From Allacma fusca (taxonomy: Eukaryota; Arthropoda; Collembola; Symphypleona; Sminthuridae), in contig OX359250.1 in NCBI GenBank assembly GCA_947179485.1, positions 44,923,450 through 44,987,449 of the forward strand: 64,000 bases of DNA. The letters run 5' to 3'. Below, one piece after another: positions 5,913 through 54,297 of this stretch. Position 1 is the first letter of the stretch, and each line of letters begins with the position of its first letter. The position numbers were made by a program, and so were the translations under genes. The notes under the pieces were generated by a model. That model saw only the letters and a list, made by a program, of their open reading frames with translations. It made no database searches and was not told where the DNA came from.

Positions 5913-8900
5913 CTAGTCCCAGCAGACGTCATTGTACAATGGATACTCAGTATTTTGAGCAGCAAAGTCGGTTATACTATATAAACATGCAAATATTCCT
6001 TTAAAATGTCCCATAGTTTCCTTGTCATAGTTGTCGTCTTCGTCAGGGAAATCGAGGAGCTGTTCAGTGTCAATGTCATCCCCTGGGAAGTCAATAAGCG
6101 GTTTGGTGCCTTTGTAACCCGAATTTCCAGAGTTGTCACTTTCAGGAAAGTCCATGAGGGGTTTCGTGCCTTTGTAACCCGAATTTCCGGAGTTGTCACT
6201 TTCAGGAAAGTCAATAAGGGGTTTGGTGCCTGTGTAACCCGAATTTCCTGAGTTGCCATTTTCAGGAAAGTCAATAAGGGGTTTGGTGCCTTTGTAACCC
6301 GAATTTCCTGCGTTGCCATTTTCAGGAAAGTCAATCAGGGGTTTGGTGCCTGTGTAACCCGAACTTCCTGAGTTGTCATTTTGAGGAAAGTCAATAAGGG
6401 GTTTGGTGCCTGTGTAACCTGAACTTGCAGAACTTCCTGAGCTGCCTTTTTGAGGAAAGTCTATCAAAGGTTTGGAGCCTTTGTAGCTAGAATCTATGGA
6501 AGACCCCTCGTCCGGAATTTTATTCCGCTGTGTGGAGCTCTCGTGATCATTTGCGTCTACGTTGTCCTTTCGAGGTACACCAGAACCATCTGAAACTCCA
6601 GACTCGGGTTTACCCATGCCATCTGGGGTCCCAGTTGCTGGTTTATCAGTAACCCCTCCAGCATTGCCCGCTCCTGGAGAGCCTGCTGAACTGTCAGTGT
6701 CGGGAGGCTCCATGATGTCCAACACTATAGGATCAGAGTCTTCTCCGGAATTCACAGGGGCCTTCGGACGCTCCGTACTACCATCTCTCACAATCTCCGA
6801 CCTAACAGTCCCATCAATACTTCCCGGTCCTACTGATCTATCCGTACTGATTGTCAACAGGTCTGATCCCGGTTCGGGTTTTCCGGAAGGTGGATTCTCA
6901 TTTGGAACGGTCTGCCTGGACGGGCGAATATTTCGTACTTGATTGGCTTGACGTATTGGTCTTTCGAATTCCTGTTTCTTCTGACCGATTGTAAACGGCT
7001 TAAGTTGATGTTGCTTCTGTTTTGGTTTTAGGGCTGCAACTGATTTCGGTTGGATTTTTAACCTTCTCAGGTCATTTCTGTTGACAGGTTTCTCTCCGAA
7101 ACTCTCAGGAGGGATACTTTCAATGAGAAGAGGAGCACCTCTTCGTATATACCGGTCAGCTCCTTTCGTTTCGGTAGAAACTCGTGTCAAAGTATGGACT
7201 GAGCGTTTCCTGCAAGTAAGCCACATAAAATTGGATGCAGTAGTAGCAATGATTATTTTATTTATGATAATGGTTGTTAGAAATTAAAGGTGACATTAAT
7301 GGCCATCTTTGGAAATTTTTCTCTCTACATAGTCACGCAGGTAGCTCAGTTGGGTAGTTGGACTTTGACGAATTATTTAGACAAACCCAAGAGAGCATTT
7401 TAAAAGAAATTACCACCAGAATTCCAGTTCCCCAAAATTTTTTGAGATAACTATTTTAATACCACATTTAACATTTTCAATCACATTGTCATGTGCGTGT
7501 ATCTCCTTTGCCCAGATTGAGACTCCATACTGCGGAGAATGAAGAAGGGTCAAGTTAGAATTTTGAAAAGTGAAACCTTGGGTCACCTGTTTGCTGCCTT
7601 AGCTTCAAATTTTCGATTCGGCTACCTCTTAATTTTCCTGTTTTAATTAGATTTATACAAAAGCACAAAGTATACCTTATATTAAAGAATGTTTGAAAAA
7701 AATTTAGAAATTCTGACTTGATCCCATGTTCAAATCTGATATATGAGAGATTCATGACTAGGGGGATGAAACCAATTCAGAAAACCCTTAGAAACACACG
7801 CACGCTAGAACATGGGGAAGTTGAATATTTTTTTACCCTTGTTAAGTCGGTCCTGGGTTACAGCAAGACCTTTTTTACGCACAGCAACAGTAAAAAGCAA
7901 TGGAATACCTCAATTTTGGAATAAATATATCAACTTTATCAAAATCTTGCTCTATACCCCTAACCCAAAAACTTTGGAGGATGAGGATGAGGATGCCATT
8001 CACTTCTTAGCATCGTGTCCAGCTTTTAGTATAACTAGTCATATTTATTTGAAAATGTTCATTAGATTTGAGCCTTCTCAAACAGGCGAGTCTAAGTGAC
8101 TTGTTGTAGTACTTAATTGCAACAGGCCGCTTTGTTAATCTCCCACAGTAATTTGTACAGGGAAATCTACAATGGATCCATTGGGAGGATTGAGCAGTCT
8201 CCTCTCATCAATCTGATGAGAGAAAACTACATACTAAAATACATATAATACATATATACATAGAACCAAATACTTGATACAGCACAACTGCCAAGTATCC
8301 GCACTACCAAGTCAGGATATTTTTAAAATAGAAATTTTAAATCTTTTGAACGATCACTCAAATTTATGCGTTTTTAACAATTTTGAGGCTGTTTGTGGTA
8401 ACTTTGAATACAAGCACGATCTGAGAAACTTGTGTTGAATACTTAAGGTGTAGGAGGCAAACGTGGAGGTTTGGAGCAAGGTTTCCCCAATGATAAATCA
8501 GTTTCATAAATCGAAAAATAACAAAGATATAAAAAATCGTTTACGTTCTTCAATGTATGTTTCCTTTAGAAATATTTAGTCGACTGATCTTACACTTGAA
8601 GTTTTCTTACACGGATTCCCAGATTGTGCTTGTTTAAATGTCCTACAGCCGCACACCAAATGTGTTTTTAATCCTTGTGAGTCAACATTCAAGATATTTA
8701 AAATATCATTTATTTTCCAAAAATCCTGACTTTGCTCTACTTCCTTGCGTCAAACCAGCGAGTCTCAGCAGACTGAGATCCTTATCGCAACGGGACAGTA
8801 CTGGACTTCAGTTGACACCCGTCGACATGACTCTTGGATGAAGACCACTGTCAGTACTCCTCTCTCAAACTGAGATATTTTCGACAGTCATTTTCAGAAA

Positions 8901-36291: not shown

Positions 36292-39200
36292 TTAGGAATT
36301 ACAAACTTCTGCATCTAACGGCTGTTTGGAACTATCTTCATCGCCTGATGTCCCAGTATCCTCTTCCGATGAAGCCACAAACTTTTGACACAGGTAGTTA
36401 GTTACATAGCCAGCGGAAGAAAAATATTTTCTGAAATTCTCATCGAATTCATCCGGGCTCATAAGATCACTATCAGCAATCGATAAGTGAATATTGTTCC
36501 CAAGATCATCAAAATTGTCAAGCTCTGAGGCCAAAAACTGCTCCAAAGCTTCCAGTTCGTCATCATTAGCTAATTCATCAACATTTTCATCTGCGTTTTT
36601 GGGTTGTCCAGGTTCTGGAATCAAATTAATTCATTAAAATGAATTCCTTACAATAATAATTTACGATCCTGTTCAGGCCTAACAATTGATATTATATTCA
36701 TTAATGAAACTTACCAATTTTAATCAGTCGCTTTCGATCATTCTCTAAATCGTCATCTGAGCTTGCAAACAGATCGTTCAGCTTGGTTTCATTCGATCCC
36801 GTCGTTTTACTTATATCAATGTTTTCTTCATTGCAGCTAGCACTTGCCAAGGCTGAAGCAATCAGGTTCTGCATTCCAGTTCGTAAGTACATGAAGTATT
36901 TCAAATATTCAAGGATGAAGTTCTCCACACAATTGAACAGTTCCATGCTTTCGCGACAGATTAACAGAAGTTCACTTTTGACAAAAGACCTAAAGAATCG
37001 GTTGCATTTTCTTTAAAGTATTCATTTAAAGTTCCAAGTTTCACGGTCTAATGCATTATTTCATGGGGCATAATTCTGAAACATAATAAGAAATACATTA
37101 CATATAGAACGATAGCCCAAGGAATGTGTTTTGCAAATTCAGTTTGAACTCAGTGGTCGGAGCTTTAGTTGCTATTGATTCTTCGACGATATTTTCAACC
37201 CATTGCACAATGAGCGGGAGGCGGTTTGGCTTCGCAAGAATGCCGTGTATTTCCTTCACCTGTGAGTAGGCTGCAGTTTCTGATTTCCATCCCAACTTTA
37301 GAAATAATTCGTATTTATCAGAAAAATTGCTAGGAAGTATATGACAACGCTAAAACAAATTTAAATATCATATTACTCATGTTACTGCCTAGCTCACCAT
37401 CAAATTCAGCGTTTCGAAGTTAATCTGACTAGTTGAAGCCAGCAGCCTAGCAACTTTATCAGTATTACTCAGGCTCTTTTGCACGGAGCAGTACAGACTG
37501 TTAGTGTTCAAAGTCTGTTCCAAAGGTCTCATGACATTCTGGAGAGTTTTAATTTTCAAAGTTCTGAAATCTTCTGGATAGTTTTCCAATGCATCGAAAA
37601 GCCATTCTTCGACTATTGCGAGAAAATTACGAATGTTTTGGGTAACTTCAACTGCAAAACAGACAAATATTATGATCAAGGTCAGAATTATAGCAGTTGT
37701 AGCTCTTGGAGTATCAAAGTAAGTAAAAAGCTACAAAGGGATTTTTCATTTGTTGTCCCGGATGAAGATGCATAACTCACTGGGAACAATGACAGTTACA
37801 TGAGGACATAACAAGTACGCAATGCTAGTGTAAGTTTGCTTATCCATTTCGTTAATAAACTTTTGAACGTTCCGATTAGCAACAAACTTCTTCAACTTGT
37901 TCCTGAATTGATGAATCCATATTTTAATTAAGATTTACACGCAAACATTCTCCTTGCGTAATAATCAGTTTAAACAAATAGGACCTTGTGAACGGCCGAC
38001 TAGAATCTGCCTTAGTGCTTGGTCCTTCATTAGAGCCAATGACCTTGGTATTTTTCTCGACTTTATAAAACATTTGCCATGTCGACCCAACTTGTTCTAG
38101 CTTAAAGGATACCACCGAAGCCAATAAGCTCTACAACAGAATTTAAAAAAAGTGTTTAATTTTTCACTCATACGAGATAGAGATATATTTGCCCAAGTAA
38201 AAGATGAAAATGAATAAATGTATCTTACATTACAATGTTCGTGGTAATAACGTTTAAAAATGGCAATGTCATCCTTTGTCAAGCCATCAGTAACCGGAAT
38301 AAAAATATCCAAATCGGGTTTCAGATGCTTCATAGTGTTCTGATTTTCCTCCTAGCAATAAACAAAATATTTGAAACACAATCTCAAGCAATGCAGTCCT
38401 GTGCCGTAGCTGCCCGGGAAAAAGTGTAGCGGTTAAACAGTTGAAAATCATTTTATGAAATGAAAACAATAATAAAAAGGGTTCACCTATTTTTGTGGCA
38501 GTAGTTTATAGCAGGATATATATATTTTATAAACATAAATAACCAATTAAATTCAATAAATGTATACAAACTACACAAAAATACCTGCTGAAATCGAAAT
38601 TGCATATAATCCGTTTCCAGACCCTGGCAAAATTTGGAGTTCCAAGATTTGAAAGTTTTTGTAGTCCAGTTCATACGTTTTTCCATGGCACCATTGTTAT
38701 TATTGAGACTGCCCCAGCAAAGTCCACCTTTAGTTCCAGATTTAGATTTCCGAATTTCGGTGTCGCCAATTATCACGTGCAAGAGTGGCGAATCAGGCTT
38801 GATTCTCATTCCACAGTAATGGTACTTGGAATTTCCTCTAGTTCCAAGCCGTCGTGTTTGAAGACCCAAGAATACGGATCGAATGACTTTTCCGAACGAT
38901 GCAGCGTTGATGGGCTTTATATTCAAACTTTTGCAATGCAAAAGATAGTGATTATACACTAAGTAGCGAGGAAGGCTGCTTCCATCCACAGTTTCGAAAT
39001 TTTTCATCAACCATTTTATCTACAAAAGTACAGAGCATGATATTAACACATATTCGAAAGATCTACCGGAAAGTTAAGAAAAATAAACCAACCAAAAGCA
39101 TTGTAGTTGTAGAATGTGACGAAAATACTCGTATGATACTTTGACCCTATCTGCACACTTCTACGTTGAAGTTTTGACGAAAAGTTCAAGTTCAAGAGAG

Positions 39201-46672: not shown

Positions 46673-46681
46673 AGTATTTGT
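46673..46681 (+). repeat. MULE target-site duplication, left
   Basis: AGTATTTGT abuts the left inverted repeat and is repeated at 54289-54297. Nine base pairs is the usual Mutator-like duplication. A T precedes both copies, so a 10-bp reading is also possible. Confidence 0.92.
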
Positions 46682-46855
46682 ACTAGCCGTTAAAGACAGG
46701 CTTTGGTAGCTGCAAAAACGACCAGCTCTTCTTCAGACTTTGACTATTTTTCTCGGCTGTACTTACAACATGCGACTCTCTCACTCTCACTATTAGTTCC
46801 TACATAGCTCCTAGCTCCTAGTCAACGAAGCAGTGTGCAACATCCTTGGATATTT
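46682..46855 (+). repeat. MULE left terminal inverted repeat
   Basis: It begins ACTAGCCGTTAAAGACAGG and ends CATCCTTGGATATTT. It pairs with 54115-54288 with no indel and two mismatches (ACTTACAAC against ACTTCCAAC, and GTTCCTAC against GTTACTAC). It contains repeated CTCTCACTCTCAC and TAGCTCCTAGCTCC words that could bind transposase. Confidence 0.97.
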
Positions 46856-47153
46856 ATGGTAGTAGTCCTCCAAAGTCCCTTCGGCAAAACCTTAAAATGT
46901 TATTTCATGTGGACTTACAATTAGTTGAATAAATGAAGAATAATAAAAAAAATCATAAAGTAATGGTAATTCCTAGTTCCGCCTGGTAATTAGTACACGA
47001 TTTATTAATATTTCGGCATGGCATACACTGGTCAACTTTTCATCCGATGTAAACTCGCGGCAATGTTTATCTCTCACCGATGCAAGCTGTCAAAGTCTGT
47101 GATTTTCGCTCTTGACATGTAATTAAATTAAATTCTGATTTTTCACTTGATTA

Positions 47154-47262
47154 AATTAACTTTTACGTTATTAATTATCCATTTAACTGGTAATTGGTGA
47201 ATATTGGGTCTCTCTGGACAGGTTTACTTTAGTACAACTGCATTTTCGATGTAAGTACAAGT
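47154..47262 (+). promoter_or_regulatory. MULE leader segment, copy 1, with splice donor
   Basis: The segment contains TTTAACTGGTAATTGGTGAA, TCTCTGGACAGGTTT and CATTTTCGAT followed by a consensus donor GTAAGTACAAGT at 47251. A diverged copy lies 214 bp downstream. I read it as a candidate noncoding first exon whose donor could join the acceptor at 48270-48271. Transcription is inferred. Confidence 0.5.
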
Positions 47263-47368
47263 ACATGATAATTACATCATATTACATTATTCTTTACCAC
47301 ATTCTGTAACTCTGGTTTCCCTCTTATCATTTATGTAAGTAAATGAAATCTTCAATTCTTTTACTTGA

Positions 47369-47475
47369 TTGCATTCATTTTCTAGTTATTGCACGTTCCG
47401 ATTAACTGGTGATTGGGAAATATTATCTGTCTGGACACGTTTGCACAAGAACTACATTTCCGATGTAAGTACAAG
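47369..47475 (+). promoter_or_regulatory. MULE leader segment, copy 2, with splice donor
   Basis: It repeats copy 1 with substitutions: GATTAACTGGTGATTGGGAA, TGTCTGGACACGTTT and CATTTCCGAT followed by the same donor GTAAGTACAAGT at 47465. Conservation of the donor while the rest has drifted hints at use of both as alternative first exons. Confidence 0.5.
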
Positions 47476-48214
47476 TTATCTTGCATGTATATTATGTACT
47501 TAGTAAATAAATTAAAAACAATTGGAGTTGTCTAGTTGTAAGTAACCATACTAAGTCCATACTGAGCGACAATTTATTGCCGGAGCAGTATGGCACGCAT
47601 AAAAATTTAGGATTTTTGGTGATCTGAATCGATCCACGCCATTTTTTTTTCGGAGGGGCCAGGCACACATTTTCTTAGGAGTCATTTAGGGTGCAGTCAT
47701 ACATATCTTATGCAGACTTTCATAAGTAAAAGTAATAATTTTGAATAAATGAAGTCAGCAAAGATTGAAAATCATCAGTTACAGCCTTGTATTTAATAAT
47801 AATGCGATGATTTGGTTCAAGGAATATACAATGATTTCAAACATTTTTAACAGAAAAATATTTGAAATAAACTTGGATACAAATATACTACTTGTACAAG
47901 TGATGAAATGCTATCCTATAAGATCCACGAAATGTGGTAATAATAATATCGTTTATAAGCTGCTTAGATCAATTAAATCGTTGTCTAAATTGTTCAAAAT
48001 GTTCAAAAATCTTTCCACGAACTCCGATTAATAGTCCAATAACTGCAATGGTTTAATTAATTAGTTTATTTAATTTTAATTCAATATTATTTTTGATGTT
48101 CTAACTCGGTAGCTCCTAATTTTAATAGACATCGGTTTGTTTAACTACTAGGAGGGTTTCAAAATATTTCAAATATGGTTTTCAAAGCTAAAAAGTGAAA
48201 TACAAAACTGAAAA

Positions 48215-50908
48215 TTGAATTTAGAAATAACTGGATATTTTTTAAATAGTAATTTTATTTCTTGTGTACAGTTACAGAAATTTGACATTTCAATAATGGC
48301 AGTCAATATCAATAAAGTTCAAACAAACGACGTAATCGCAAGTGAGTCTTCTGACGATGACTTTCAAACGCCCTCAACAAGTCGTAGCGCAAAATTAAAG
48401 TCAGGAATTATTCAGTCAATAGATGAGAAACTTGAAACAATGAAATGTCCCCAATGTCAGTACCATACCAACGATAAATCAAATTTAAATCGGCACTTGA
48501 ATCGCCATAATAAACCCACAAACTGCGAAAAACTGAAGGTTTCATTCAAATGTGCAGAATGCAAGTATGAAACTGTTAAAAGCAGTAATTGGAAGAAACA
48601 TTTAGAATCCGCAAAGCATAAGACACTTTGCGATTCAGAAGATTTGAGAATAGATCTGCTCCAATGTCCTGAACCTCAGTGTACATTCACTGCCAGCAGA
48701 TTGAATGTCGTGCACACTCATCTAGAACTTAGTCATTCACGGATTCTTGAAAAAGAGATGTTGAAGTTTAGATCATGGGAAGAATTTAAAATTTGGAAAA
48801 ACAACTTGCAGGCAACAGAGTCAGTTAAGTACATTAAGAAATCATCAAAGGAAGGGCGAAATTTGTATTACTGTCATCGAAGTGGTATATATCAGCCTAA
48901 AGGCAACGACATCAGGGAGCTTAAAAAGCTTGGTAGTGTGAAATGTGGGAAACTTTGTCCATCTATACTACAAGTGACTGTTGGTGAAGCGGAAGTCGAT
49001 GTGGTTTACTTCAAGACTCACCTTGGTCATGAATTAGAACCCGGAAAAGTTGGAATTCCATCTCCTCAGAAGCACATGCTCGCTGAAAAATTGGCACAAG
49101 GTGTTCCAAAGCACATTATGCTTCAAAATATCCGTAAAGCTCACGCTGGTACCATCAATCCAATTGCATTAGCAAACAATCAAGACCTTAGTAACATTGG
49201 CCGCAAACACGGAATTTCCAGACATATTCACCTACATGGCAATGATGCAGTTAGCGTGGACTTGAAAATTCAGGAAATGAAGCAGAGAGGAGATTATGGC
49301 GTCTTTTATTACAAACCATACGGCGAAAAGCGGAACGATCTTCCCAGAGTAAAGGAAAATGAATTTGTATTGGGATACATGAACCATGGACAAGAGCACA
49401 TGATAAAAACTGCCGGCAAAAATCTGATCTGCATTGACTCGACCCATGGTACCAATGCATACAACTTTGAGATGACAACGATTTTGACATTAGATGATGA
49501 GTACCAAGGGTTTCCGTTGGCATTCTTTTTTCACTCATCTAAATCTCAAGAAACTTACATTTCATTCTTCGAGGCCCTGAAAGAACGAGTTGGGATACTT
49601 CAAACATCTATTTTTATGTCAGACGACGAACCAGCATTTTACAACGCATGGAATCTGATAATGGGCCCTGTTGATAAAAAACTGTTATGTTCTTGGCATG
49701 TACGTCACAACTGGAATCAAAAACTGAGCTCACTTGATAAAGACCACAAGACATTGCTTTCGAAGAAACTTAGCGTAATTATAAAACAGTTAGATGCAGT
49801 TGAATTTGAGCAAATGTTTCAAGCCTTTCTCTCTAGCCTAGTAGCAGATGTAAACCCAGCCGTAAATAAGCTTCACTCATATTTCACTTACTATTGGAAT
49901 AGAAGGACTGAATGGGGTTATTGCTACCGGGTGCATGCAGGCATCAACACCAACATGAGCCTTGAAAACATGCATAAAGAAATCAAGTCTAAATATCTAA
50001 AGGGGAAGAAGGTCAAGCGTTTGGACGAAGGATTTAGCGCAGTTTTGGAATATCTAAGACAACGGCAGTACGATAGGCTTGTAAGCAGACACCGTGGTAA
50101 AGTTACTACTAAAGACAAGAGTTTGAGAGAAGCCCACAAACGTAGCTTAGATCGCTCCATTGATTCAGTTTTGCAAGTTGAAGACTCGTGGGTAGTTCCG
50201 TCCTTCTCAACCACCGGTAGATTGTACAGCGTCGAATCAGTGATACATGATGACTGTTATTGTTTGACACGTTGCTCTAAATGTGAGAAATGTTTCCATA
50301 ACTTCAGGTGTTCATGTGTAGAAAACAGTATCAAGACCAATATGTGTAAGCACATCCACTTAGTTTGTCGTTATATTCAAGCAAATCATAGCGACAGTAC
50401 AGAGGCTTCAGACGACTCTCAACTTATTATTGACACAAACACATTTCAAGAGCGTAGAGATGAGGAAATACAAACTCATTTACAAGATTTGACTTCAGGA
50501 AATGAATTAGGACACTTGGGAAACACATGTAAAGCATTGTATGATCAAGTTCTTGATATTGCTACAAAGACAGGAGATTTTGCAATTCTTGAAAAGTGCT
50601 TGTCTGAAGCCTTAAATAAATATCGAACAAAGCATGCAAACTTGGAAAGCTTGCCCATTGACCCAATTGTGCGAAAACGTCCAGCAAATGCAAACGCTGA
50701 AAAACAATTGCGATACTTCAAGAAAAAACGCATACCATCTAAAACCACCGTTCTAACAAATGAACAGCAGCTTCAAATTGAACACAGTCTCTTACCACTC
50801 CGAATTCTTCCCGCTGACCAACCTTTCGAAGTGTTAAATTCCATCAATGTTACAACAACCGTTGTTTCAGATAGTGATGTACCTTTTGAGAGTGAAGTAA
50901 TCATCTAG
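48215..50908 (+). CDS. MULE transposase, C2H2/DDE/SWIM
   Basis: An intact 897-codon frame. The first 27 codons contain a good 3' splice site (CTTGTGTACAG at 48261-48271), so translation more likely starts at the second ATG, 48296 (MAVNINKVQ), giving 870 residues; numbering here is from 48215. Three C2H2-like fingers lie near residues 78-98, 110-134 and 147-172 and probably bind the inverted repeats. The MULE DDE core has D408 (LICIDSTHGT), D470 (FMSDDEPAF), the C-x-WH motif (LLCSWHVRH) and a candidate catalytic E584 (NMSLENMHKEIK). A SWIM zinc finger follows: C699-x-C701-x9-C711-x-H713. No stop or frameshift interrupts it. It should cut and insert the element in the nucleus. Phantom-type animal MULEs are the nearest group I can suggest. 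Confidence 0.93.
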   Translation: MNLEITGYFLNSNFISCVQLQKFDISIMAVNINKVQTNDVIASESSDDDFQTPSTSRSAKLKSGIIQSIDEKLETMKCPQCQYHTNDKSNLNRHLNRHNKPTNCEKLKVSFKCAECKYETVKSSNWKKHLESAKHKTLCDSEDLRIDLLQCPEPQCTFTASRLNVVHTHLELSHSRILEKEMLKFRSWEEFKIWKNNLQATESVKYIKKSSKEGRNLYYCHRSGIYQPKGNDIRELKKLGSVKCGKLCPSILQVTVGEAEVDVVYFKTHLGHELEPGKVGIPSPQKHMLAEKLAQGVPKHIMLQNIRKAHAGTINPIALANNQDLSNIGRKHGISRHIHLHGNDAVSVDLKIQEMKQRGDYGVFYYKPYGEKRNDLPRVKENEFVLGYMNHGQEHMIKTAGKNLICIDSTHGTNAYNFEMTTILTLDDEYQGFPLAFFFHSSKSQETYISFFEALKERVGILQTSIFMSDDEPAFYNAWNLIMGPVDKKLLCSWHVRHNWNQKLSSLDKDHKTLLSKKLSVIIKQLDAVEFEQMFQAFLSSLVADVNPAVNKLHSYFTYYWNRRTEWGYCYRVHAGINTNMSLENMHKEIKSKYLKGKKVKRLDEGFSAVLEYLRQRQYDRLVSRHRGKVTTKDKSLREAHKRSLDRSIDSVLQVEDSWVVPSFSTTGRLYSVESVIHDDCYCLTRCSKCEKCFHNFRCSCVENSIKTNMCKHIHLVCRYIQANHSDSTEASDDSQLIIDTNTFQERRDEEIQTHLQDLTSGNELGHLGNTCKALYDQVLDIATKTGDFAILEKCLSEALNKYRTKHANLESLPIDPIVRKRPANANAEKQLRYFKKKRIPSKTTVLTNEQQLQIEHSLLPLRILPADQPFEVLNSINVTTTVVSDSDVPFESEVII

Positions 50909-51101
50909 GGTGTAGCTACAATTTGTATTACTTTATATTTAATAATGTAAATAATATTTATGTGTTTGATTTACACGTCGTTTGTTACATCGACTACATT
51001 CCTTCTGCTTTGTATAATGAGTAGGGTAGATAAATAATTGTCATTTAAAATGGAGTCCATTAATTTGTATATATATATACTTATAATATAGTAAATATTA
51101 T

Positions 51102-51321
51102 AACTTAGTATTTGAATATTTAACTTACTAATTTAATATTTAACGTAGTAATTTCATATTTAACTTAGTAATGTATTATTTAACTTAGTAATTTAATATT
51201 TAACTTAGTAATTTCATATTTAACTTAGTAATTTCATATTTAACTTAGTAATTTCATATTTAACTTAGTAATTTCATATTTAACTTAGTAATTTAATATT
51301 TAACTTAGTACTTTAATATTT
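51102..51321 (+). repeat. 20-bp minisatellite, 11 units
   Basis: Consensus AACTTAGTAATTTMATATTT repeats eleven times without indels; the outer units are the most diverged, as expected if the middle expanded. It lies between the transposase stop and the second MULE gene. Confidence 0.95.
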
Positions 51322-51565
51322 AACTTTTTTATCTTTCATTTTTAACATTAGCAAATACATTCATAATAAATTTTAAAGAATCAACTACTAGCATTAATTA
51401 CTTTGAATATCTACAACATATTTAATAAAATTATTCTCTGTAAAAGCAACCACATCGTGATTCCTCTTCAATTTTTATCATTTGTATTTATAGCTTTATT
51501 GTGACTGGAGAATAGCTGAATATATGAGCTGCGGTTGGTAAATTACATTTGTACGTAAATTTTAG

Positions 51566-52562
51566 ATGCAGAGATACGTTTGGATCCCGAAAGAACCTCC
51601 TTTCGTTCGTCAGTCCTACCAGCCACCGAAGCAACCACCGCTTCCTCGAGGGCTCCGAATAGTAAGTGTATTTTCTGAAATATGAAATGTTGGACTTCAC
51701 AATACGTAAATACTTTACTGAGGCATGTATTTTTAATTTACTTGACTCTATTTGAATACAACTTAGATAAATAATGTATGATTATTTTATTAGGAAAAGC
51801 TTGACATTATTGTTGAGAAAGAGATCGACTGGTGGGCTTCAGATGCACCGTATCCGTACATTGACCCCAGAGAACTTTCCCGGAAACGGAAGGAGGAAAC
51901 ACCGACGCAATCTAGTACCGCAAGTAGTTCTGTTAGTGATGAGATTGAGACTACTCAGGAGGTAAATTATATTTGTACAATACTTTGCTATATTGTCGTA
52001 ATGTTACTATTTGTCATTGTGATACATTTATGAAAATCTAGAAAAAGGCTTACTGCAAAATGGGGAATCGCATAATTCATTCTCTATATACCTTATTTAC
52101 TAGTGAGTAAAGACTGTTGTGTCACTCTGACATGACAATATCAAAGTTATCATATTTTATAGTTGTTGTTTCATTTCATACTTTTTCACAAGGTCTGTGA
52201 AACTGAAACTGCGAGTGATATTGCTGATTCTCAGATACCTGTGTCCCAGCCAGCTGAGGTAAGACTTTTAAACTAAAATTATTTGGACCAAGCTATCAAT
52301 TTAATTATACTCAGTATTATTGTCTCTAAACCATGCCATCATTAAAACCTTGGCAAAAGGCATTGTGATGAATAATTCACAATGAATTTTAATCGGTCTG
52401 TTCTTAAAACCTTGTTTTGTTTAGCTGTCAAAGAAAGAACAGCGCAGGTTGGACCAAAAGCGCCGAAGAAACACCACCTCAGGCCGTATTTCTCAAAAAC
52501 AGCGCCGACAGGAACAACGGTACCGGAAGAAAATGTTCAAACTGGACAAACAGTTAAAATGA
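51566..52562 (+). CDS. Second MULE-encoded protein, 155 residues, spliced
   Basis: Four plus-strand exons (51566-51661, 51794-51961, 52193-52258, 52425-52562) join in phase 0 with GT-AG sites at each intron and end in TGA. I do not recognise the product. Exon 1 is proline-rich (MQRYVWIPKEPPFVRQSYQP). Exon 2 has DWWASDAPYPYIDPRELSRK, then a Thr/Ser/Glu-rich acidic linker that continues through exon 3. Exon 4 is a strongly basic, Lys/Arg/Gln-rich helix (LSKKEQRRLDQKRRRN to KLDKQLK), a likely nucleic-acid-binding or nuclear-targeting tail. The start ATG sits directly after an acceptor-like TTTTAG, so an upstream leader may be spliced on. AATAAA occurs about 25 bp after the stop. Maize MuDR also has a second gene, but I see no similarity I can claim. 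Confidence 0.75.
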
Positions 52563-52927
52563 ATAAATGCAATTACATATTGAAAATTAATAAATAATTC
52601 CGGATTGCAAATAAATTGTGGCTCCTATTCCAAGACTTGAGTAAGATATGACTAATTAATATATTATTATTATTATTATTATTAAAGTCTATAATGTAAA
52701 TTATCCTTCTTACTAATTTGAAAGTGATTGTCATGATGGTGATGGCAGTCGTCACTTATGTACATGACCTGTTGAACATAGCGGTTCATTTTTTTTCATT
52801 CTTTAAAAAAATGCGTTGATTTTTATTTTAAAGAAATTATTATTTTTGCTCAAATGAAAGAAATAATATGAACAGCTTTCTTTTTAATATGTATGGTTAA
52901 TTCGAAACAGCTACCACTTGCTTATTA

Positions 52928-53016
52928 TGTACGCCTTTGAATATTAGTATCTACAGTTTGGCTAATATGGTCAGTCATAATCTTTTAACCGCCAAGATTA
53001 AATTCTAACTTTGGGT
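52928..53016 (+). repeat. MULE internal direct repeat, copy 1
   Basis: It runs from TGTACGCCTTTGAATATTAG to AACTTTGGGT. A diverged direct copy lies at 53291-53376, about 360 bp downstream. No coding content. Confidence 0.7.
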
Positions 53017-53290
53017 AGGAGAGTACATAAGAGAGTATACGAGTAACTCTGGGGTCCACCAACACATGTCAGACATACTATTAAATAAAATGATGAAGCT
53101 ATGATGCATTGACAGCGTTCCTGGTCAAAAATCGAGTTAATAATCAATTTTTGTAAGCCAAGATTTAAAGTTTCACGTCCATGTGAATAAAATCTCCAGA
53201 ACGTAGCCTACGATCACTCGCATTTACTTATATTGACTCATTTAACCATATTAATAATAGATAATAATTACCCCGCTCAATTATCCACTG

Positions 53291-53376
53291 TGTACACCTT
53301 TGAATATTTAGTAAAATGTGACTAATATAATCAGTCATCATCTTTTATCAACCACAATTTTATTTTAACTTTGGGT
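53291..53376 (+). repeat. MULE internal direct repeat, copy 2
   Basis: It runs from TGTACACCTTTGAATATTTA to AACTTTGGGT and shares TAAT(A)G/TCAGTCATNATCTTTTA with copy 1. The pair suggests a segmental duplication inside the element's 3' untranslated part. Confidence 0.7.
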
Positions 53377-54114
53377 TTTTTAGTAAAGTTGTCCATCATA
53401 CTCCATATTAAAAAGGACAATTTTAAACCAAGGCTGGCTAACCAACATTTTATCAGCTTAAATAGCTTAATTATTACCGTTTTAAACGCACGCTGTATAA
53501 CCTTTATTTTACATATAATTATTTTAAAAAACATGCCCCACAACATCAGATTAATTCAAAAGAATTATGATTTTTTTGTCAACCGACTTACAATCATCCT
53601 AACGTAATTTAAAAAAACAGCTATTGATCAAAATTTGTGCTAATTATGCTAACATAAACTGGATGAGTTTAGTTTTGTTACTGATGGGTTATAAACCCCC
53701 AAGCCAGTTTCCATACGATTTTTTATTGTAATAATAGATAAAGCGACTGCAGCAATGAATTTACTGTAAATACGTATGTATATATCGCAAAGCTAATCCT
53801 CTTTTACGTAAGATAATAACCTAATAGTCAAATTGTCTGTTAATCCTCTAATAAAATCAAAATTCTTATTGTTTAATCCGGTATTCCAATCGAATTTTCT
53901 TATTTTTATTTTCAATCCAATAATCCAAACCCAAACTGCTAGAATTTTATTTCCAATGCATTGATGCAAATCTTTTTTATTAAACCCTTAATCAATTCCT
54001 GATTCCAACCTATCTAGATTTCCCATCCCTGTATGTTCATGCAGAAAGGTATTTGAATTAATTCAAAGGTTTCTTCATATTAAACTAATTGTAAGTCAAG
54101 GCCGCTACTAACAC

Positions 54115-54288
54115 AAATATCCAAGGATGTTGCACACTGCTTCGTTGACTAGGAGCTAGGAGCTATGTAGTAACTAATAGTGAGAGTGAGAGAGTCGCAT
54201 GTTGGAAGTACAGCCGAGAAAAATAGTCAAAGTCTGAAGAAGAGCTGGTCGTTTTTGCAGCTACCAAAGCCTGTCTTTAACGGCTAGT
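54115..54288 (-). repeat. MULE right terminal inverted repeat
   Basis: It ends TGTCTTTAACGGCTAGT and is the reverse complement of 46682-46855 apart from two substitutions. Confidence 0.97.
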
Positions 54289-54297
54289 AGTATTTGT
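54289..54297 (+). repeat. MULE target-site duplication, right
   Basis: AGTATTTGT matches 46673-46681 exactly. Confidence 0.92.

Follow-up and report, generated by a model that had tools for sequence, protein, structure and literature searches.

Among animal Mutator-like elements (MULEs), Muta1 of Aedes aegypti has been reported with seven identical copies and with transposition in yeast (PMC5225508), and an arthropod survey gives 322 MULE types in 222 species, 305 of the 322 with intact repeats and a complete transposase (PMC13359780). Genes besides the transposase are known from MULEs of maize, Arabidopsis and yeast (PMC6446971): maize MuDR carries mudrB next to mudrA, and the Arabidopsis VANDAL element Hiun carries vanB and vanC. 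According to the same source mudrB is apparently required for integration and is also described as being of unknown function, while vanC is an anti-silencing gene; the function of the second proteins in some MULEs is poorly understood. Here we analysed a stretch of 64,000 nucleotides from the springtail Allacma fusca (contig OX359250.1 of assembly GCA_947179485.1, referred to as the window; C9:44923450-44987449 in our contig numbering), which likewise contains a MULE with an extra gene, termed gene 2. A first-pass annotation made from the letters alone had called intact animal MULEs less often described; judged by Muta1 and the arthropod survey, they are better known than this implied. The explanation that best accounts for the observations taken together, and in which we have good confidence, is an autonomous-type, very recently transposed MULE, most likely with a gene-2 helper and a leader exon shared by both genes.

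The element spans window positions 46682-54288 (7,607 bp) and both boundaries were exact. Its inverted repeats, claimed to be 174 bp long with two mismatches, were borne out by an arm-to-arm alignment, and the exact 9-bp duplication was found as AGTATTTGT at 46673-46681 and 54289-54297. The transposase frame, which starts with the ATG at 48296 and closes with the stop codon 50906-50908, was open throughout, as claimed (870 amino acids), and the second, spliced gene could be predicted with four exons, GT-AG introns and a product of 155 amino acids. With a MULE-type DDE domain, a duplication of 8-11 bp (here 9), long repeats (usually above 100 bp, here 174) and a zinc finger (SWIM, C2H2 or similar, here C2H2), the element has the characters of the MULE superfamily. 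Its features, in window positions, are as follows.

46673..46681, no strand: left target-site duplication AGTATTTGT
46682..46855, plus strand: left terminal inverted repeat, 174 bp, starting ACTAGCCGTTAAAGACAGGC; 67 ends in the genome match its outer 30 bp exactly
47251..47256, plus strand: candidate splice donor GTAAGT directly after TTCGAT, in the first of two approximately 75% identical internal repeats (prediction)
47465..47470, plus strand: candidate splice donor GTAAGT directly after TTTCCGAT, in the second internal repeat (prediction)
48278..48295, plus strand: short leader stretch from the candidate acceptor (TTACAG, ending at 48277) to the transposase ATG (prediction, by eye)
48296..50908, plus strand: transposase open reading frame, 870 amino acids plus stop, with C2H2 zinc fingers, MULE/DDE domain and SWIM-type motif (Pfam; DDE and SWIM-type motif by eye)
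51094..51326, plus strand: minisatellite with a 20-bp unit, 11.6 units in the window copy and 23.6 in the chromosome 3 copy
51566..51661, plus strand: predicted gene 2 exon 1 (MQRYVWIPK...), with an acceptor-like TTTTAG immediately 5' of the ATG
51794..51961, plus strand: predicted gene 2 exon 2, with the conserved DWWxxxxPYPYxDPR motif
52193..52258, plus strand: predicted gene 2 exon 3
52425..52562, plus strand: predicted gene 2 exon 4, with the basic RRNTxSGRxxQxxRRxxQRY region, ending in TGA
54115..54288, minus strand: right terminal inverted repeat, 174 bp, two mismatches to the left repeat
54289..54297, no strand: right target-site duplication AGTATTTGT

For the search of further copies the genome comprised 392,743,791 bases in 91 contigs. 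By match to the published assembly qeAllFusc8.1 (PMC10427803), C9 would correspond to X2, C10 to chromosome 3 and C8 to chromosome 2, and C1, C12 and C5 would be chromosomes 1, 4 and X1. Searching with the inverted repeat, where 40 of 97 candidates were scored, gave three end pairs at 98-100% identity, and no further end among the 40 was more than 88% identical to the repeat. Of 130 transposase candidates 52 were scored; three places were 100% identical, and the other matches in this sample reached at most 53% over most of the transposase, besides fragments of up to 90%. The full-length copies are that of the window and one each on chromosomes 2 and 3. The three full elements measured 7,607, 7,607 and 7,847 bp. 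Their alignment showed a single substitution, at window position 53073, and a single 240-bp gap within the minisatellite of 20-bp units; their 9-bp duplications were distinct (AGTATTTGT, TTGGTTTAC and GCATCTTTT). Both arm mismatches were common to all three copies; they therefore predate the insertions and are uninformative on age.

Uninterrupted sites were sought by joining 150 bp of each flank, keeping one copy of the duplication, and running the joined sequence against the genome. With the chromosome 3 flanks, 12 matches crossed the junction with identities of 91-97% and a further two with 71-72%; TTGGTTTAC was single in both of the uninterrupted paralogous sites that were fetched (2 of the 12). 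The joined flanks of the window copy had no other match in the genome, hence no uninterrupted site, and those of the C8 copy gave partial matches only, at 74-79%. The chromosome 3 copy sits in an interspersed repeat, possibly a retroelement end, of which copies spaced by approximately 6 kb occur on C9, C12 and C1 (L064, L065). That one assembly holds three near-identical blocks might also reflect segmental duplication or an assembly artefact. We consider this extremely improbable, since the flanks differ, each copy has its own 9-bp duplication, the flanks of the window and C8 copies have no second full-length match and the C10 site has uninterrupted paralogues; moreover, the matching published assembly is HiFi-based with a quality value (QV) of 58.7 (PMC10427803). 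The separate duplications together with the uninterrupted paralogous sites show insertion and not block duplication, and transposition was real and recent. The first-pass annotation had described the element as intact and recent, and had proposed counting near-identical copies and empty sites. This count gave three full copies on three chromosomes, instead of the single genomic copy it had named as contrary evidence, as well as uninterrupted paralogues for the chromosome 3 site; the distinct duplications, the one substitution and the one change in minisatellite length are in line with its description. The element may still be mobile today.

The window family (family 1) has related families in the same genome. 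Family 2 is present on C1 and C9 as copies of 8.6 kb that are 99.73% identical (12 mismatches) and have the duplications GAGATTGAC and GTTAGCGATG, read by eye. Family 3 has a 7.5-kb copy on C10 with a 268-bp inverted match at 100% and the duplication ATAATCAAT, again by eye, a C1 copy at 99.82% over 5,098 bp, whose left repeat was not found in the stretch examined, and a C5 copy at approximately 98%. The transposases of both families are approximately 50% identical to that of the window, and all three families begin with ACTAG, with GTAAA or GTTAAA close after. The near-identical copies within families 1-3 indicate recent movement of several related MULE families here. Having only three near-identical copies, with all others of the 40 scored ends at or below 88% to the repeat, family 1 could instead have entered the species recently by horizontal transfer and not from a resident lineage. 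This seems unlikely in view of the decayed transposase fragments of the same lineage that reside on C9 (86-90%) and C8 (from 72%) and of the decayed gene-2 exons of the same lineage on C8 (84-97%), for which a resident, re-awakened lineage is the simpler account. The window element is one member of a MULE radiation resident in Allacma fusca, and many of these elements carry gene 2.

The transposase matched the Pfam family MULE (PF10551) with an E value of 2.3e-13 and 50.8 bits (cut-off 27.6), and its C2H2 fingers matched zf-H2C2_5 with an E value of 4.9e-07. The catalytic triad claimed for it was assigned by eye to D381, D443 and E557, with spacings of 61 and 113 residues. The claim of a SWIM motif held in part: a SWIM-type CxCx9CxH starting at C672 was read by eye, while Pfam gave no SWIM match. 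By sequence, the PDB contained counterparts of the C2H2 fingers only, and no relatives of the transposase or of gene 2 were confirmed in viral contigs. By binding the inverted repeats the transposase would presumably mobilise the element, a 9-bp duplication being left at the target.

Gene 2, which the first-pass annotation had noted but taken no further, lies downstream of the transposase on the same strand, here and in many related elements. Its predicted protein combines a DWW..PYPY.DPR motif with a very basic C-terminus; no Pfam family matched it above the cut-off, with sub-threshold matches only, and no PDB chain matched by sequence at E up to 1. A genome search with this protein returned 69 matches with E no higher than 10, which were grouped by hand into 40 places and scored for their proximity to 34 hand-listed transposase places. 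At E up to 0.001, 15 of the 23 places lay within 5 kb of a transposase, compared with 0.014 expected by random placement; relaxing the cut-off to E 1 gave 18 of 36, and to E 10 gave 19 of 40. For a distance of 12 kb the corresponding counts were 16/23, 20/36 and 21/40. The gene-2 exons of family 3 were 35-43% identical to those of the window and stood beside its approximately 50% identical transposase with order and strand unchanged. Exons 1 (MxRYVWxPK), 2 and 4 recurred in family 3 and likewise in eight of the ten additional loci searched, some of these with incomplete exon sets; no gene-2 exons were present in the stretches examined at L029 and L033. In seven of the eight lineages read, intron 1 was at the same place, and the ATG at the start of exon 1 was kept in the same proportion (7/8).

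Comparing the window with its nearest relative, on C8, in blocks chosen by similarity, the ratio of nonsynonymous to synonymous divergence (dN/dS) was 0.18 for gene 2 (dN 0.046, dS 0.248, 111 codons), and 0.16 and 0.28 for two parts of the transposase. Among the 28 gene-2 pairs of eight lineages, eight had usable synonymous distances, with dN/dS of 0.13-0.52; in the other 20 the synonymous sites were saturated and the proportion of nonsynonymous differences (pN) was 0.22-0.47. These values are signs of purifying selection on gene 2, which looks like a resident accessory gene of the element. Its protein would most likely be a nucleic-acid-binding helper, with a role in integration, in recognising the ends or in evading silencing. 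At one locus on C5 (L052, C5:50256680 region), gene 2 exons 1 and 4 were 91% and 80% identical to those of the window, but the nearest transposase fragment was only approximately 60% identical; this may point to an exchange of modules between MULE lineages.

The arrangement of candidate splice sites suggests how the two genes could be expressed together. Both messages would begin with a common leader exon at the left end of the element, which would be joined by splicing to the transposase frame in one case and to gene 2 in the other. An acceptor-like AG stands immediately before gene 2 exon 1 in seven of the eight lineages read, preceded in several by a T-rich stretch; the exception is the decayed L052, which has TTAA. 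Something upstream is therefore probably spliced onto gene 2. Families 1-3 and the C8 relative also have acceptor-like sites, read by eye, 1-31 bases before a transposase ATG. On the donor side, GTAAGT occurs four times within element positions 570-862 of family 1, two of these occurrences falling in the approximately 75% identical repeats, and CCGAT followed directly by GTAAGT is common to family 1, the C8 relative and family 2. The position of exon 1 directly after an acceptor-like AG would also suit alternative 3' exons of the transposase gene, with gene 2 contributing to a chimaeric isoform. This reading appears improbable to us: the family 3 transposase alignment reaches its own C-terminus (query 4-870), so that this end is kept, the ATG of exon 1 is conserved as described above, and the candidate donors cluster in the 5' region.

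A number of observations weigh against a helper expressed from a shared leader in a mobile element. As to the leader, GTAAGT occurs six times in sense and six times in antisense across the full element, the 13-base donor string that family 1 has in common with family 2 lacks significance by itself (E 0.095), and family 3 both lacks CCGAT with GTAAGT and has an in-frame ATG upstream of the supposed acceptor. As to gene 2, L050 lacks intron 1, its exons 1 and 2 running together; the choice of the dN/dS blocks by similarity biases them toward conservation; and dN/dS was 0.47 between the window and a decayed C5 copy and 0.52 in one other pair. Only three copies of the window family were found.

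Further points of this kind concern the partnership itself, and favour a gene 2 that is a passenger, either a captured host gene with no role in transposition or a gene that is also free-living in the host. MULEs tend to acquire fragments of host genes (PMC6446971). In family 2, gene 2 was undetectable by tblastn or by exon hidden Markov models; this family manages without it, and the helper is accordingly not universal. Of the 40 gene-2 places, 19 had no transposase match within 12 kb, five of the 19 being last-exon fragments near family-1 ends. The one other unpaired locus that was read, on C12 (L066, C12:35511800-35516500; place 35512306), resembles a whole gene 2 standing alone, with exons 1, 2 and 4, clean splice sites and no stops in these exons; the 3.1 kb on the side where a transposase would be expected show no similarity to one, and none of the family end sequences looked for was found there. 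It may be a deleted element, an element with a more distant transposase, or a host gene. L066 weighs against a strict partnership of gene 2 and transposase and has raised the standing of the passenger explanation, whose probability we still put as low: gene 2 accompanies transposases only approximately 50% identical, with order and strand maintained, the position of intron 1 is kept in seven of the eight lineages read, and a passenger would be expected to decay, in contrast to the dN/dS of 0.18 against the nearest relative.

A resident accessory gene in a recently transposed element remains the preferred explanation. A more far-reaching proposal, which we put forward tentatively and with the balance somewhat against it, is that of an animal MULE lineage dependent on a dedicated, spliced accessory protein, the latter being maintained by selection together with diverging transposases and both being expressed from one alternatively spliced leader. 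The gene-2-bearing element beside the related young family 2 without gene 2 offers a direct comparison of the need of a transposase for the helper, and the element could seed a springtail transposition system.

The ends of the element are shared by short relatives. The outer 30 bp had 67 exact and seven near matches (up to two mismatches) genome-wide, and the reversed control had none. Of these 74 matches, 18 fall in a tandem array on C12 and 56 are dispersed, six of the latter belonging to the full copies and 50 to others. The array (C12:45504133-45608510, approximately 105 kb) holds its 18 ends on the same strand, at a spacing of approximately 6.4-6.7 kb and then 4.5 kb; its unit contains the MULE end, and the 3.6 kb that were read share merely short end stretches with the elements compared. 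Eleven end-bearing loci were fetched (L011-L021), ten of which had both ends, and none of these ten short copies had a transposase match. Duplications of 8-10 bp were present in seven of the ten, six found by script (L011, L014, L015, L017, L019, L020) and one by eye (L013, whose left end carries a small internal duplication), and were lacking in L016, L018 and L021. L018, despite having no duplication, was 99.95% identical to L019 over 2.1 kb, so that something has recently moved or copied them. Among the elements with these ends, an intact transposase was found in the window family alone, which makes cross-mobilisation possible; the window-family transposase could act in trans on the short copies.

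The window copy lies just upstream of a gene that encodes an RFX DNA-binding domain (PF02257, 44962-45657, minus strand) and whose upstream exons were read by eye; approximately 120 bp separate the insertion from a possible start codon of this gene (46558, minus strand; a guess). MULEs are reported to be prone to insert in or near genes (PMC6446971), a propensity with which a position close to a 5' gene end would agree, as a single case with a guessed start codon. A second RFX domain lies at 38483-39010 on the minus strand, approximately 6 kb from the first, possibly in tandem RFX genes. Elsewhere in the window, an open frame on the minus strand (5913-7226) contains repeated GYKGTKPLIDFPE-like units and had no Pfam match at E up to 0.01.

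Finally, the element can be compared with described MULEs. Searches of the openly licensed literature found no description of the element or of gene 2. The arthropod survey, of 2026, includes a MULE from Symphypleona, the springtail order of Allacma fusca, but that entry (6,638 bp, 445 amino acids, 66-bp repeat; PMC13359780) does not fit the 7,607 bp, 870 amino acids and 174 bp found here. Muta1 resembles the window element as an animal MULE with long repeats (145 bp in Muta1), 8-9-bp duplications, identical copies and non-autonomous derivatives; it differs in being 3,198 bp long with a single 504-amino-acid transposase in two exons (PMC5225508), as opposed to 7,607 bp, 870 amino acids and a second gene. 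Its reported transposition in yeast also sets it apart from the window element. Phantom (group 20 of Dupeyron et al. 2019) has arthropods among its hosts, duplications of 8-10 bp, repeats of 18-613 bp or none, and one or two open reading frames, with a minisatellite after the transposase frame in aphids (PMC6446971); the window element likewise has a minisatellite there. The table in that source permits none, FLYWCH or SWIM for Phantom, and the window transposase had no Pfam FLYWCH match at E up to 1. Gene 2 would at most be a functional analogue of mudrB in maize or VANC in Arabidopsis. If the dependence on gene 2 proposed above is true, this intact and recently mobile element would have a separately evolved animal counterpart of the accessory systems of MuDR in maize and VANDAL in Arabidopsis. 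Since arthropod MULEs that are active or intact were known before, the conserved second gene is the more unusual point and the main addition.

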